The notes under the pieces were generated by a model. That model was not told the DNA's origin, did no database searches, and saw only the letters and a list, made by a program, of their open reading frames with translations. 5,698 nt of DNA, from NCBI GenBank assembly GCA_030040475.1, contig JASHTQ010000408.1, forward strand, positions 1 to 5,698, in the 5' to 3' direction. The stretch comes from Streptosporangiaceae bacterium (lineage in GTDB: Bacteria > Actinomycetota > Actinomycetes > Streptosporangiales > Streptosporangiaceae). The translations under genes and the position numbers were made by a program. Positions 691-5,698 of this stretch are shown one piece after another (the first letter of the stretch is position 1; the number at the start of each line of letters is the position of its first letter).

Positions 691-1220
691 CCGCGCTTGC
701 GGAGATCGGGGCGCTGTTCGCCGGGCCCGGCGCGCGGGACTATCTCGGCGAGCCGGTGACCATCGGCACCCACATGCTGCAGGCCGCGGCGCTCGCCGAG
801 GCCGCGGGCGCGGACCCGGCGCAGGTGGCCGCCGCCCTGCTGCACGACATCGGCCACCTGCTGGGCGAGACCGACGCCCGGCACGGCCCGGCGGGTGCCG
901 ACTGGCTGAGCCAGTGGTTCGGCGAGCAGGTGACCGAACCCGTCCGGCTGCACGTCAGCGCCAAGCGATACCTGTGCGCGGCCGAGCCCGGCTACTTCGG
1001 GCTGCTCTCGGCGGAATCGGTGCGGACGCTGGCGCGGCAGGGCGGCCCGATGACCGGGGCGCAGGCCGCCGCGTTCGAGGCGCTGCCGTTCGCGCGGGCG
1101 GCGGTCGCGGTACGCCGCTGGGACGACGAGGCCAAGGACCCGGCGGTCACGCCGCCGGGTTTCGCGCACTTCGAGCCGCTACTGCGCGGCCTGCTCCGGG
1201 CTGGCCTGGTCCGCTCCTGA
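687..1220 (+). CDS. tmpB: TmpB/PhnZ-type HD-domain diiron oxygenase, C-P bond cleavage
   Basis: This 177-residue protein matches the 'phosphonate degradation associated HDIG domain' family, which uses a mixed-valent Fe(II)/Fe(III) pair and O2 to cleave 1-hydroxyalkylphosphonates. For TmpB the products are glycine betaine and phosphate. Visible features are His29 in GTHMLQ, His53-Asp54 and His57 in LLHDIGH, His66, His89 and Lys93 in LHVSAKRY, QGGPM at 118-122, and Asp146 in RRWDDEAK. Tyr19 and Glu22 precede His29 with the spacing of the PhnZ gating/substrate loop (Tyr24/Glu27/His34, from memory). The spacings His29-His53, His89-Lys93 and His89-Asp146 also equal those I recall for PhnZ. The full metal and phosphonate-binding set therefore looks intact. 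The ATG at 687 is backed by AGGAGG and overlaps the tmpA stop. The last 42 bases overlap the 3' end of the convergent gntR. PhnZ-like activity on 2-aminoethylphosphonate is the main alternative; a TauD-type rather than PhyH-type partner favours TmpB. Confidence 0.87.
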   Translation: MTALAEIGALFAGPGARDYLGEPVTIGTHMLQAAALAEAAGADPAQVAAALLHDIGHLLGETDARHGPAGADWLSQWFGEQVTEPVRLHVSAKRYLCAAEPGYFGLLSAESVRTLARQGGPMTGAQAAAFEALPFARAAVAVRRWDDEAKDPAVTPPGFAHFEPLLRGLLRAGLVRS

Positions 1221-1997
1221 CCCGTGGTGACGTCCCTGCCCGGGGGTCCTGGACAGGGCGTTGACCGCGATCGAGTTGTGCACGCTGAACGCGACCGCGC
1301 TGCCCAGGTAGCGGTCGTCGGACCACTCGACGGGCACCCCGGCCAGGTCCATGGTGAGGCGCCGCTCGCGCAGCAGCGGGACCCGCGGCTGGACCCGGAG
1401 CAGCCTGGCATCGGCGGCGGTGGCGGGCACCGCGTCGATGACGTGCTCCGCGTCCGCGAACACGATCCCGAGCTCCTCGAGGCGCTCGGTGATCGAGTCC
1501 CGTTCCAGGTTCATGCCCGCCACCAGGATGCCCACCCGGTCCGGATAGGCGCCGCGCTCGATCATCACCGGGTTTCCCGACAGCAGCCGCACCCGCGTGA
1601 GGTGGTAGATCGGCGCGCCGGGCGCGACGGCGAGCTGCCCGGCTTCCAGCGGCTTGGCGGGGCGCCGCTCCATCCGCACGACCTGGCCGGCCGGCACCTC
1701 GCCCATGGCCCTGGCCCAGCGGGAGAACGACAGCAGCTCGCCGAAGCTCTGCACCCTCGGGCCGCCGATGACCACCCGGCGGGCTCCCCGCCGCGACGCG
1801 ATCACGCCGTCCGCGCGCAGCGCGGCGAACGCCTGCCTGACGGTCCCCCGGGACACCGAATAGCGCTCGGCAAGTTCGCTCTCCGACGGCAGCCGGGTAC
1901 CCATCGCGTAGCCGCCGCCCGCGATGGCGGCCTTGATGTCCTCGGCCACCTTCCGGTACAGCGAAAGCGATCCGGGTACCTGGTGATCTACCGCCAT
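1179..1997 (-). CDS. GntR family (HutC/UTRA) transcriptional regulator
   Basis: With the ATG at 1997 the protein has 272 residues. Residues about 12-76 form a GntR winged helix: YRKVAEDIKAAI, then LPSESELAERYSVSRGTVRQAF (the recognition region) and the DGVI wing. Residues about 97-245 form a UTRA ligand-binding domain of the HutC subfamily, ending near YLGSAVAFSVHNS. UTRA regulators sense small metabolites and often control amino-acid, sugar or phosphonate uptake and breakdown; PhnF is the phosphonate example. The residues after about 248 are a polar tail outside UTRA, and its last 13 codons are antisense to the 3' end of tmpB. The frame also has ATG at 2018 and GTG at 2033. None has a clear Shine-Dalgarno, and 1997 is preferred because a promoter-like element would start the transcript almost at this ATG. 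The gene is divergent from the NHL-phospholipase gene and convergent with tmpB, so either could be its target. The ligand is unknown. Confidence 0.9.
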   Translation of the reverse strand: MAVDHQVPGSLSLYRKVAEDIKAAIAGGGYAMGTRLPSESELAERYSVSRGTVRQAFAALRADGVIASRRGARRVVIGGPRVQSFGELLSFSRWARAMGEVPAGQVVRMERRPAKPLEAGQLAVAPGAPIYHLTRVRLLSGNPVMIERGAYPDRVGILVAGMNLERDSITERLEELGIVFADAEHVIDAVPATAADARLLRVQPRVPLLRERRLTMDLAGVPVEWSDDRYLGSAVAFSVHNSIAVNALSRTPGQGRHHGSGADQASPEQAAQ

Positions 1998-2005
1998 GAC
2001 TGATG

Positions 2006-2033
2006 AGCGTAGCGTCATGTCGGTGCTCGTCAC
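2006..2033 (-). promoter_or_regulatory. Putative near-leaderless promoter of gntR
   Basis: On the - strand GTGACG (2033-2028) is followed after 16 bases by TACGCT (2011-2006, fits TANNNT). A start seven bases past the -10 falls near 1999, two bases before the ATG at 1997. No Shine-Dalgarno is visible, which agrees with leaderless translation, common in actinobacteria. This is inferred from pattern only. Confidence 0.4.
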
Positions 2034-2114: not shown

Positions 2115-4616
2115 ATGGCCCCTCTGTTTTGGCGGCGCGGGCGTCGGTGGCCAGGGATCGTCGCCCCCTGCTTTCTGCTAGCCGCTGTATCGCTCACACC
2201 GGGCCCGCTCGCGCACGCGCCAGGGTTCCGGCTGGCCTTCGGGCAGCAGGTGCTGGCCGGCCCCTACGGCGTGGCCCTGGACCCGAACGGCGACGTCTGG
2301 GTGGCCGATACCGGGCATGACCGGGTGGTCGAGTTCGCCCCGTCCGGCCGGCTGATCATCGGCTTCGCCGGAGGCCTGGAGCAGCCCGAGGGCATCGCCG
2401 TCGACGCGACCGGGCACGTCTGGGTGGCCGACACCGGCCATGACCGGGTGGTCGAGTTCTCACCGTCCGGCCGCAAGATCAGGGCGTTCGGCTCGGCCGG
2501 GAGCGGACGCGGCGAGCTGGACCAGCCGGTCGCGCTGGCGATCTCGCCCTTCGGCGACGTCTGGGTCGCCGACCAGGGCAACAACCGGGTGGAGGAGTTC
2601 TCCGCGTTCGGCCGCTACCACGCGTCGATCTCCGTGCCGACCCCGGCCGGCGTCACGCTGGATAACCATGGCGACGTCTGGGTGTCCAGCCCCAGCTACG
2701 CGGCGGGCAACTCGGTCTACGAGTTCTCCCCGGCGGGGATGCCGCTGCGGTCGTTCGGCACCACCCAGGCGGGCTTCGGCGACCTCGGCGACACCGGCGG
2801 CATCGCGGTCGGCCCGGCCGGGAGGATCTTCGTCGCGCAGCCTGACTACGGCCTGGTGTCGGTGTTCAGCCCGGCCGGGAGCTTCTATACCGAGTTCGGC
2901 CTGCAGCAAAGCGCCGGGAAGGCGGGCGAGGACCTGGAGTTCCCGCAGGGCCTCGCGGTCACGGCCAGGGGCCAGGTATGGGTGGCGGACAGCGGGCACA
3001 ACAGGATCGCCGAGTTCGGCTCCGCCCCCGGGTCCGGCGCGCCCGCCGCGCCGGCCGCGCCGAGCAGCCCGTGGATCCCGCTGATCGTCGGCGAATGCCT
3101 GCTGGCCCTCCTGCTCGTCGCCCTCGGCTGGTACCTCGCCCGCCGTCCGCGGGGCTCCGCCGAAGGTCCGCGGGGCTCCGCCGAAGGAGCGCCGCCCCCC
3201 GCCGAGTCGGCGCAGTTCAGCCGGCGCCGGGTGCTGGCCACCGCCACCGCCCTGTCCGGCGTCGCGGTCGGCGGCGCGGTGCTCCCCGTCAACCTGCGCA
3301 AGGCGCTGGCTGCCACCGCGAAGCTGCAGCCCGCGGGCGCGCTCGGCGACATCGAGCACATCGTGATCCTGATGCAGGAGAACCGCAGCTTCGACCACTA
3401 CTTCGGCACCATGCCCGGCGTCCGCGGCTTCGCCGACCCCGCCGCGATCAGGCTGCCGAACGGAGACCCGGTCTTCCGCCAGCCGTTCGATGGTCACGCG
3501 CAGGGCTTCCTGACGCCGTTCCGCTACGACACGTCGACGACGAGCGCGCAGGCCACGCCGGGCACCGACCACTCGTGGCCCACGCAGCACCAGGCCTGGA
3601 ACAACGGCAAGATGGACCAGTGGATCGCGGCCAAGGGCCCGTACACGATGGGCTACTTCACCCAGGCCGATATCCCGTTCCAGTGGGCGCTGGCGCGGGC
3701 GTTCACGGTCTGTGACAACTACCACTGCTCGGTGTTCGGGCCGACGAACCCCAACCGGCTGTACATGTGGACAGGGACGATCGACCCGGGCGGCACCGCC
3801 GGCGGCCCCGTCATCGACGACAGCCCCGCCTACGACAACGTCATCCTGTCCTGGACCACCTACCCGGAGCGCCTGCAGCGCGCGGGCGTCAGCTGGCAGG
3901 TCTACCAGGAGGAGGACAACTACGACGACAACGCGCTGGCCTGGTTCAAGCAGTTCGCCGGCGCGGCACCGTCGTCGCCGCTGTGGCAGCGGGGGATGCA
4001 GAAACGGGCGGCGGGCTGGTTCGAGGCTGACGCCGCGGCCGGCCGCCTGCCCCAGGTGTCCTGGATCGTCGCGCCCACCGCCCAGTCCGAGCACCCGGAC
4101 TACTTCCCGGCTGCCGGCGCCGAGTACGTCGCGAGCAAGCTGGACGCGATCGCCTCGAACGAGGACCTCTGGCACAAGACGCTGTTCATCTTGACCTACG
4201 ACGAGAACGACGGGATCTTCGACCACGTGCCGCCGCCGGTCGCGCCGCAGGGCACCAAAGGCGAGTACGTCGGCGGCGAGCCGATCGGCCTCGGGTTCCG
4301 GGTGCCCGCCATCGTGGTCTCGCCCTGGTCGGTGGGCGGCCGCGTCTACTCAGGCGTGCTCGACCACACCTCGCTGATCCAGGTCATCGAGCGGAGGTTC
4401 GGCGTCAGGGAACCGAACATCACCGGCTTCCGCCGCCGCACCTGCGGCGACTTCACCGGCGCGCTGAACTTCGGGCGGCAGGCCAGCTACCCGCGGTCCA
4501 ACAGGGCCATCAGCCTGGCCGCCGCCGACGCGGGCCTGCTCACCGCCCAGCAGGAGGTCTACGGCAACCCGCCGCCGCTGATCCCCGCGACCAACCAGCC
4601 GGTCCCGCGCCAGTGA
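2115..4616 (+). CDS. NHL beta-propeller / transmembrane / internal Tat signal / phospholipase C fusion protein
   Basis: This is an 833-residue protein. Residues 1-35 are a basic stretch (RRGRR) plus a hydrophobic segment, a Sec-type signal or anchor with a possible cut after AHA. Residues about 47-302 hold six NHL repeats with pre-motifs such as PEGIAVD and cores at about 61, 102, 149, 188, 238 and 288 (e.g. VWVADTGHDRVVEF), a six-bladed propeller. Residues 320-342 are a transmembrane helix followed by RR. Residues 343-367 are a linker with PRGSAEG twice. Residues 369-399 look like a Tat signal: SRRRVLA, a hydrophobic run and an ALA site. Residues about 410-833 are a phospholipase C of the PlcA-D/AcpA superfamily: metal-binding Glu422-Asn423 in QENRSFDHYFG, candidate nucleophile Thr544 in FGPTNPNR, SEHP at 658-661, Asp696-Glu697 in TYDENDG, and Asp750-His751. 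The C-terminal DUF756 modules of Pseudomonas enzymes are absent. The expected reaction is extracytoplasmic hydrolysis of phospholipids to diacylglycerol and phospho-head group. The ATG at 2115 is the first start in frame. No ATG, GTG or TTG lies in frame between about 2981 and 3231, so a separately started Tat-PLC is unlikely. Confidence 0.88.
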   Translation: MAPLFWRRGRRWPGIVAPCFLLAAVSLTPGPLAHAPGFRLAFGQQVLAGPYGVALDPNGDVWVADTGHDRVVEFAPSGRLIIGFAGGLEQPEGIAVDATGHVWVADTGHDRVVEFSPSGRKIRAFGSAGSGRGELDQPVALAISPFGDVWVADQGNNRVEEFSAFGRYHASISVPTPAGVTLDNHGDVWVSSPSYAAGNSVYEFSPAGMPLRSFGTTQAGFGDLGDTGGIAVGPAGRIFVAQPDYGLVSVFSPAGSFYTEFGLQQSAGKAGEDLEFPQGLAVTARGQVWVADSGHNRIAEFGSAPGSGAPAAPAAPSSPWIPLIVGECLLALLLVALGWYLARRPRGSAEGPRGSAEGAPPPAESAQFSRRRVLATATALSGVAVGGAVLPVNLRKALAATAKLQPAGALGDIEHIVILMQENRSFDHYFGTMPGVRGFADPAAIRLPNGDPVFRQPFDGHAQGFLTPFRYDTSTTSAQATPGTDHSWPTQHQAWNNGKMDQWIAAKGPYTMGYFTQADIPFQWALARAFTVCDNYHCSVFGPTNPNRLYMWTGTIDPGGTAGGPVIDDSPAYDNVILSWTTYPERLQRAGVSWQVYQEEDNYDDNALAWFKQFAGAAPSSPLWQRGMQKRAAGWFEADAAAGRLPQVSWIVAPTAQSEHPDYFPAAGAEYVASKLDAIASNEDLWHKTLFILTYDENDGIFDHVPPPVAPQGTKGEYVGGEPIGLGFRVPAIVVSPWSVGGRVYSGVLDHTSLIQVIERRFGVREPNITGFRRRTCGDFTGALNFGRQASYPRSNRAISLAAADAGLLTAQQEVYGNPPPLIPATNQPVPRQ
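2293..2473 (+). repeat. Near-identical NHL blade repeats 1 and 2
   Basis: Bases 2293-2350 and 2416-2473 (123 bases, 41 codons apart) match at 54 of 58 positions by hand count. They encode the blade cores that read VWVADTGHDRVVEF in both copies. The other four blades are much more diverged, so these two look like a recent blade duplication or a gene-conversion pair. Confidence 0.8.
3146..3187 (+). repeat. Perfect 21-bp tandem duplication in the linker
   Basis: Bases 3146-3166 are repeated exactly at 3167-3187. In frame this gives PRGSAEG twice (residues 345-358), between the transmembrane helix and the internal Tat signal. The copies are identical, so the event is recent or the unit is prone to slippage. 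It lengthens the predicted cytoplasmic loop by seven residues without breaking the frame. Confidence 0.9.
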
Positions 4617-4710: not shown

Positions 4711-4869
4711 GTGCCTGAAATCCGCCACTGCCGCCACTGCTACGGCGACTGCCCGGGCGACTGCCTGCTCCCCGGCCAGGACGTGTGGTGCATTCACCGG
4801 ATGCCCAGGCTTCCGTTCCGCCAGCGGGTTCGGCTGATGCTCACCAGGCTCTGGGGCGCTCGGCCGTGA
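4711..4869 (+). CDS. Small Cys/His-rich protein of unknown function (52 aa)
   Basis: I do not recognise a characterised family. With GTG at 4711 the product is 52 residues. Its N-terminal half has five cysteines and three histidines: His6, Cys7, His9, Cys10, Cys14, Cys18, Cys27 and His29 (CRHCYGDCPGDC, then WCIHR). The C-terminal half (31-52) is basic and amphipathic, with RQRVRLMLTRLW. The C-x2-C-x3-C-x3-C-x8-C-x-H layout suggests a zinc or iron-sulphur site with a basic tail that could touch nucleic acid or membrane; this is inference. An upstream in-frame GTG at 4666 lies beside a hairpin and adds residues without the motif, so 4711 is preferred. The last 29 bases overlap the convergent DAHP synthase gene. 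Codon choice stays G/C-rich at third positions, as in real genes here. Confidence 0.65.
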   Translation: MPEIRHCRHCYGDCPGDCLLPGQDVWCIHRMPRLPFRQRVRLMLTRLWGARP

Positions 4870-5698
4870 CGTGCTGGCGGTACATATCCGCGACGCGGAA
4901 GGCCAGGTCGAGGGACTGGCTGCGGTTGAGCCTCGGGTCGCACGCGGTCTCGTACCGCTCCCGCAGGTCGCTTTCCGCGACGTGATGGCCCCCGCCGACG
5001 CACTCGGTGACGTCGTCGCCGGTGAACTCGATGTGGATGCCGCCCGGGTTGGTACCGAGCGAGCGGTGTACCTCGAAGAAGCCGGCCACCTCGTCGAGCA
5101 CGTCGTCGAAGTACCGGGTCTTGTGCCCGGTCGCCGCCTCGACCGTGTTGCCGTGCATCGGGTCGCACACCCACACGACCTCGGCGCCGCTCGCCGTGAC
5201 CTTCTGCACCAGCGGCGGCAGCGCGTCGCGAATCCGCCTGGCGCCCATCCGGGTGGTCAGCGTGAGCCTGCCGGGCTCGCGGTCGGGGTCCAGGGCCGCG
5301 ATCAGCGTCAGCACGTCCGCCACGCCGGTCGCCGGGCCGATCTTGACCGCGACAGGGTTGGCGATCTGGCGCGCGAACTCGATGTGGGCGCCGCCGGGAT
5401 CACGGGTGCGCTCGCCGATCCACAGCAGGTGCGCCGACAGGTCGTAGGCACGCCCGCTGCGCGAGTCGGTCCTGGTCAGCGCCCGCTCGTAGTCAAGGAG
5501 CAGGGCCTCGTGGCTGGAGTAGAACTCGACCGCGCGGAACTCCTCTGGATCGGCGCCGCAGGCGTGCATGAACGCGATCGCCCGGTCGATCTCGCCCGCC
5601 AGCCGCTCGTAGCGCTGCCCGGCCGGGCTGCCGGCCACGAAGTCCTGGTTCCAGGCGTGCACCTGGCGCAGGTCGGCGTACCCGCCGCTGGCGAAGGC
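4841..5698 (-). CDS. aroG: Class II 3-deoxy-D-arabino-heptulosonate 7-phosphate (DAHP) synthase, C-terminal part
   Basis: The frame is open to the right edge (FASGGYADLRQVHAWNQDF), so about 285 C-terminal residues of an enzyme of some 450-470 are present. It condenses phosphoenolpyruvate and erythrose 4-phosphate, the committed step of aromatic amino-acid synthesis, in the cytosol. Counted from the GTG codon at 5662 (internal, not the start), metal ligands are His170 in DPMHGNT, Glu212 in HIEFTG and Asp242 in ACDPRLN. The 42 and 30 residue spacings equal His369/Glu411/Asp441 of the M. tuberculosis enzyme. Trp81, Glu84, Arg85, Lys107 and Arg138 fall on its substrate-binding Trp280, Glu283, Arg284, Lys306 and Arg337 (numbers from memory). 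The metal cysteine and any regulatory N-terminal extension lie outside. Naming varies (aroF, aroG, aroH) among actinobacteria. A secondary-metabolism paralogue cannot be excluded. It converges on the small Cys-rich gene. Confidence 0.93.
   Translation of the reverse strand, partial: AFASGGYADLRQVHAWNQDFVAGSPAGQRYERLAGEIDRAIAFMHACGADPEEFRAVEFYSSHEALLLDYERALTRTDSRSGRAYDLSAHLLWIGERTRDPGGAHIEFARQIANPVAVKIGPATGVADVLTLIAALDPDREPGRLTLTTRMGARRIRDALPPLVQKVTASGAEVVWVCDPMHGNTVEAATGHKTRYFDDVLDEVAGFFEVHRSLGTNPGGIHIEFTGDDVTECVGGGHHVAESDLRERYETACDPRLNRSQSLDLAFRVADMYRQHVTAERPRAW

Follow-up and report, generated by a model that had tools for sequence, protein, structure and literature searches.

An actinobacterial fusion of an NHL propeller with a phospholipase C that carries an internal twin-arginine signal and is probably assembled by Sec and then by Tat

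Proteins that use first the Sec and then the Tat translocase are described as membrane proteins in which, for the most part, a cofactor domain remains anchored (PMC5449189, PMC7317946). Besides the actinobacterial Rieske protein, these dual-targeted families comprise the MoCo protein Sco3746, a polyferredoxin and a long YkuE-like phosphoesterase, and further families were found in searches for twin arginines in front of the last helix, carried out first for N-in and then for N-out topologies (PMC5449189). For the hand-over from Sec to Tat, a low hydrophobicity of the Tat segment, positive charges C-terminal to it and a loop of approximately 8 residues or more are needed (Tooke 2017, PMC5449189). 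Phospholipases C are represented among experimentally identified Tat substrates by PlcH and PlcN (PMC6085387). Here, we analyze a gene in which a propeller precedes a phospholipase C (PLC), and we consider it likely, judged from the sequences of the protein and its relatives, that the product is a dual Sec-Tat membrane preprotein, with the propeller exported by Sec and the PLC subsequently exported by Tat.

Architecture and distribution of the fusion gene

The window, i.e., the whole stretch of 5,698 nucleotides that was analyzed, contains on its plus strand a soil actinobacterial gene (2115..4616) encoding 833 amino acids plus stop in an uninterrupted frame. The chain consists, in this order, of a basic and hydrophobic N-terminus, a six-bladed NHL propeller, a transmembrane helix with arginines behind it, a linker predicted to be disordered, a twin-arginine signal in mid-chain and a PF04185 PLC. 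PF01436 and PF04185 occur together within one protein of 725-1106 residues in 120/120 listed homologues, which are the best 120 of 2039 in a database clustered at 90% identity; being top scores against a fusion query, they under-represent shorter or split relatives, and for three of them the source gives the name Streptosporangiaceae MAGs. The single frame with both domains, as read in the earlier note, is borne out, and the same domain order was found not only in all these homologues but also in two further genomes. The opposite situation considered there, that close homologues always encode two proteins, does not hold, since the 120 closest listed are one protein and two proteins were seen only in a sister clade. 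Such two-gene versions in relatives might suggest that a misassembly or a missed frameshift has joined two genes in the window; this is practically out of the question and already refuted by the one-protein state of the clustered homologues and by the single frame in the two further genomes. The joined frame did not arise through an error of the assembly.

Although genuine, the fusion is seldom encountered in the genome sets examined. Of 200 genomes from the family to which G001 belongs, at least 120 contain a match of some kind; four candidates per genome were scored here, and all counts are lower bounds. Among the listed rows of this family, the full fusion in one frame is present in at least two genomes (G173 and G021), a PLC part cut by a contig end in at least two others (G001 and G128), and in the remaining rows the match begins at query residue 272 or later. 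Class-wide, 394 genomes gave four matches at 1e-160, namely G001 and three that begin at residue 343-356. TatC is present in three of the four genomes tested and was not found in the fourth, the 3.4-Mb MAG G001.

The propeller (residues 37-302; 2223..3020, plus strand) is defined by profile matches, predicted structure and structural relatives, and its NHL repeats form a closed six-bladed fold; the Pfam match and the model thereby agree with the six repeats counted in the earlier note. In the structure prediction proposed there, propeller and PLC fold separately with the helix, at 321-342, sitting between them, the pLDDT of the PLC being 63.0 (poor) from fusion rows alone and 83.9 once free PLCs were added. 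The propeller would most likely serve as a surface binding or scaffold module that is present 1:1 with the enzyme. PknD joins an NHL propeller to a cytoplasmic kinase; the window protein is not a receptor kinase of this type, as no kinase model was found among its Pfam matches at E 0.01.

The PLC (phosphoesterase) domain (residues 408-833; 3336..4613, plus strand) lacks the C-terminal part of the PC-PLC model and belongs to PF04185 with 394.7 bits against a cut-off of 23. E422, N423, T544, D696, and E697 are invariant across 78 aligned rows and are putative catalytic residues, a role which we presume from AcpA. The enzyme presumably acts outside the cell, where it would cleave off the head groups of phospholipids. 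With the model for phosphocholine-specific PLCs, TIGR03396, it reaches 577.6 bits over model positions 2-485 of 688 and thus stays below the equivalog cut-off of 580.25, which is passed by its relatives L078 (581.3) and Kutzneria (598.0). Phosphocholine specificity cannot be assumed, because the structural relative 8yk5 bears a different substrate in its entry title.

Probable routing of the chain through two translocases

Signals and helices were judged by 19-residue hydrophobicity means plus a simplified TATFIND-like pattern in an alignment of 121 sequences, i.e., the query and the 120 listed homologues. Residues 1-35 (2115..2219, plus strand) form a putative Sec-type signal or signal anchor with a basic n-region (R7, R8, R10, and R11) and a hydrophobic stretch at 15-33. 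The hydrophobicity of the N-terminus is at least 1.3 in 112 of the 119 testable members and an A-x-A site follows it in 103 of the 119, while a TATFIND-like motif occurs at this position in only 2/121; the N-terminus of the query is without a clean cleavage site. The transmembrane helix (residues 320-342; 3072..3140, plus strand), identified by hydrophobicity and in the model, is followed by R343 and R344. Its 19-residue mean is at least 1.6 in 120/121, and K/R are in excess behind the helix (343-356) compared to the residues before it (305-320) in 118/121, in agreement with the helix and trailing arginine pair of the earlier note. The sole member without both helix and hydrophobic N-terminus, P0104, keeps the Tat motif and perhaps has a shifted frame.

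It is quite improbable that the N-terminal segment is not a functional signal, which would leave the propeller in the cytoplasm and only the PLC to be exported by Tat. The two-gene sister lineage, with a propeller devoid of signal and helix, would fit such an arrangement, as would the missing clean cleavage site in the query; it is opposed by the hydrophobic N-terminus and the A-x-A site that most testable members have, and by the helix, which would have to run from inside to outside with its basic end and the twin arginines placed outside, contrary to the charge bias.

The region behind the helix combines a variable part with a strongly conserved one. The disordered linker (residues 343-368; 3141..3218, plus strand) has a mean column identity of 0.35 over 345-368, versus 0.82 in the Tat region 369-399. 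The linker of the query also contains a perfect in-frame 21-bp tandem duplication at 3145-3187, where the 99% identical homologue P0001 differs. The internal signal (residues 369-399; 3219..3311, plus strand) is composed of SRRRVLA, a weakly hydrophobic stretch, LRK and an ALA site. The twin arginines R370 and R371 (3222..3227, plus strand) and the leucine L374 are found in 121/121, and within residues 303-412 only these three and G382, L390, P391, and G408 are invariant (n = 121). A TATFIND-like motif is likewise found internally in 121/121, so that the internal SRRRVLA signal noticed earlier is well founded. The conservation of the twin arginines alone could partly reflect inheritance, free PLCs carrying the same signal; this explanation is disfavored because the neighboring linker is scrambled.

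The hydrophobicity of the helix exceeds that of the Tat stretch in 120/121 (medians 2.23 and 1.55), positive charge C-terminal to the Tat segment (K/R at 393-397) amounts to at least one residue in 121/121 and at least two in 106/121, and the shortest loop before the motif, counted from 343 to the residue preceding R370, comprises 16 residues (n = 121). Moreover, an N-terminal segment plus one helix is predicted to place the twin-arginine motif in the cytoplasm. Since the protein has the properties demanded by Tooke 2017 for a hand-over, we read it as a substrate of Sec and then Tat. This topology, put forward in the earlier note, is further supported by the invariant twin arginines, the nearly invariant helix and the charge bias, by the query having no start codon between residues 300 and 372, and by the sister clade, where a gene of its own encodes the PLC and begins with a Tat signal.

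As a different origin of a separate Tat-PLC, an internal start was considered and rejected for the query, in which no ATG, GTG, or TTG codon occurs across residues 300-372. Possible internal starts are present elsewhere, namely a GTG two codons before the motif serine in L079 and an ATG/GTG approximately 32-34 codons upstream in L078.

The internal Tat signal could also be a relic; the whole chain would then pass via Sec, and a hairpin would be formed by the helix together with the Tat stretch. Both segments are in principle hydrophobic enough for insertion, and more than half of the E. coli Tat signals can use Sec given a suitable passenger (PMC5449189, PMC7317946). We nevertheless regard a relic as unlikely, as the twin arginines and the basic residues of the c-region are invariant next to a scrambled linker and the Tat stretch is, with one exception among the 121, less hydrophobic than the helix.

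For the favored order of Sec and then Tat, the sequence suggests the following routing and cleavage. The N-terminal hydrophobic segment would route the chain to Sec, and the propeller would be threaded out and fold outside. Helix 320-342 would then halt the transfer and bring the chain back to the cytoplasm, where the trailing arginines would remain. Behind the flexible linker the PLC would fold in the cytoplasm, the weakly hydrophobic and positively ended Tat stretch not being inserted by Sec, and TatC would recognize R370-R371 and export the folded enzyme. In most members signal peptidase could finally cut after ALA (399/400), leaving the PLC free and the propeller anchored, while in members without an A-x-A-like site the enzyme would stay tethered.

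With an A-x-A-like site defined as A/V/S/T/G, any residue, and A/G/S without proline next, residues 397-399 comply in 101/121 (97 with a literal A-x-A) and 20/121 have an unfavorable residue at -3 or -1. Release of the PLC from the anchored propeller is thus likely in most members. A variant of the same Sec-Tat assembly, with a probability that overlaps with that of the favored explanation, leaves ALA uncut, so that propeller and PLC would stay one membrane-bound chain in which the propeller positions the enzyme on the target surface. We take this to be possible but would not expect it: the members unfavorable for cleavage speak for it, as does the Sec-Tat Rieske protein, of which the final helix stays integrated in the membrane (PMC7317946, in the part available), and against it stand the retention of the site in the large majority of members, the resemblance of LRKALA in the query to LRRALA in PlcH, where an asterisk behind the last residue is taken as the cleavage point (PMC6085387), and the release of a reporter via a signal-peptidase site engineered after the last helix (Tooke 2017, PMC5449189).

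Origin of the fusion and gene neighborhood

When the sequence ahead of the catalytic motif was tested loosely for twin arginines, 88 of 91 PLC frames, taken from loci of several phyla and including four fusions or contig-cut fusion relatives (L001, L078, L079, and L080), gave a match; L051, L057, and L106 failed, and the match of L095 lies only in its RRALA stretch. Free PLC enzymes therefore usually begin with a Tat signal. An upstream segment of at least 1.6, a value computed only where enough upstream frame exists, was found among the 91 frames exclusively in the fusions L078 and L079, the next highest value being 1.49. In Kutzneria viridogrisea (L002), the stop codon of the propeller gene is TGA at 6790-6792; after a gap of 5 nt follows the most likely start of the PLC gene, ATG at 6798 (MLTRRRVLAAG). 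In G595 (L116), the only other genome with such a propeller at 1e-60 among 297 genomes of the Kutzneria family (Pseudonocardiaceae), propeller stop and PLC start overlap in TGATG. In neither of the two propellers is the N-terminus hydrophobic, the best means over 19 residues being 0.66 and 0.41, and neither contains a helix-like segment anywhere (maxima 1.1 and 0.85). These separate propellers (L002 5656-6792; L116), which lack a signal beside a Tat-PLC, may be cytoplasmic or ride out with the PLC through Tat.

All trees were computed from frames with the exact QENRSFDH motif only. In a careful tree of 59 PLC domains, 28 fusions form one clade (99/95), the two two-gene rows are its sister (100/98), and both are joined with 100/100 against 29 free PLCs; this tree omits ten long-branched free PLCs of an 83-row tree, P0106 and 15 further fusion rows, and two free PLCs were added. 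A quick tree of 117 rows, 46 of them labeled fusion, with L001 and L080 cut at contig ends and labeled by kinship, gave one fusion clade (SH-aLRT 93) with Kutzneria as sister (98). In the quick 83-row tree, in which some branches are extremely long, P0106 grouped with the free PLCs, so that with all rows considered the fusions did not form a single clade; the position of P0106 thus differs from tree to tree. The basal fusion rows P0113, L078, L079, P0110, P0114, and P0118 are longer, and L078 has an extra pre-propeller domain, which shares 46% identity across 106 columns with the beginning of the propeller protein from Kutzneria. Only 11 of the 121 rows have more than 100 residues before the propeller, and most members, including the query, are thus without this domain. 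At E 0.01, no Pfam match covers the pre-propeller domain (L078 976-3960, residues about 82-182; L002 5656-6060) with its best stretch.

The fusion probably arose once, from two neighboring genes. The Sec signal and the helix were probably gained with it, because the propellers of the sister clade have neither, and the PLC's own Tat signal was probably kept in the middle of the chain. A direction from operon to fusion is favored over an early fusion that was later split in Pseudonocardiaceae; the latter is less likely, as a split would require that both the helix and the Sec signal disappeared and that a new start arose precisely in front of the Tat signal. Combined with cleavage, this origin might make the protein the first natural Sec-Tat polyprotein, a single chain served by two translocases and cut by signal peptidase at its internal Tat signal, so that the propeller stays anchored in the membrane and the enzyme becomes free, both in strict 1:1 ratio. 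Its ancestor would be two neighboring genes at whose junction a Sec signal and a stop-transfer helix were acquired. We put this reading forward tentatively, the balance tipping slightly against it.

The gene neighborhood in the window starts on the plus strand with a TauD-family dioxygenase followed by an HD oxygenase (1-1220). The former is cut by the window start and has TmpA as best NCBIfam match (309.3 versus a cut-off of 400), and the latter is Phn-HD/TmpB-like, under the cut-offs. TmpA and TmpB convert trimethylated aminoethylphosphonate into phosphate and glycine betaine (PMC10574752, in the part available), which is suggestive of a choline-type phosphorus theme beside the PLC gene. A GntR/UTRA regulator (1179-2033, minus strand) with PhnF and HutC as best NCBIfam matches, both under cut-off, is divergent from the fusion gene with 81 bp between, and an ordinary class II DAHP synthase (4841-5698, minus strand) is cut by the window end. 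The TmpA/TmpB-like, GntR, and DAHP-synthase proteins of the window gave no match at 1e-3 in the surroundings of the two complete fusions, L108 (18.5 kb) and L109 (13.2 kb); because the neighborhood is not conserved there, no operon role is claimed.

Comparison with known systems

The earlier note knew of no phospholipase C built in this way, and this holds among the literature matches listed, from which subscription literature is largely outside the scope: they contain no paper on an NHL-phospholipase or a Sec-Tat phospholipase. The main text of PMC5449189 does not contain the words "phospholipase," "NHL," or "propeller." The fusion would be a variant of the Sec-then-Tat proteins already known, in a propeller-PLC form that was not found described. 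If the proposed routing is true, Sec hands the chain over to Tat when an entire folded domain is already outside, and this in a hydrolase whose internal signal is probably cleavable. More than 100 natural family members, which differ in linker length, in the signal and in the cleavage site, could then be used to test the requirements of the hand-over, and the two-gene sister state suggests how a Sec-Tat fusion protein can arise.

The single parts of the protein have separate counterparts. The extracellular NHL propeller of PknD (1rwi) is comparable, the window protein being without the kinase. Pseudomonas PlcH and PlcN (9gye and 9gy2) are also Tat-exported PLCs, but their signal is N-terminal and their C-terminus is longer, and the glycerophosphoethanolamine ethanolaminephosphodiesterase of Streptomyces sanglieri (8yk5) is a close structural relative with a different substrate by its entry title. 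The pair in Kutzneria viridogrisea and G595 has the same two domains in the same order, but as two adjacent genes without hydrophobic N-terminus and helix. Sco2149/QcrA, the three-helix Rieske protein of actinobacteria, and the remaining Sec-Tat families (PMC5449189) resemble the fusion in having hydrophobic Sec segments first, a twin-arginine motif immediately ahead of a weakly hydrophobic last segment, positive charges behind it and a globular domain outside. Unlike these families, the fusion would export a whole folded domain of approximately 265 residues between its first segment and the helix, and in most members its Tat segment can probably be cleaved.
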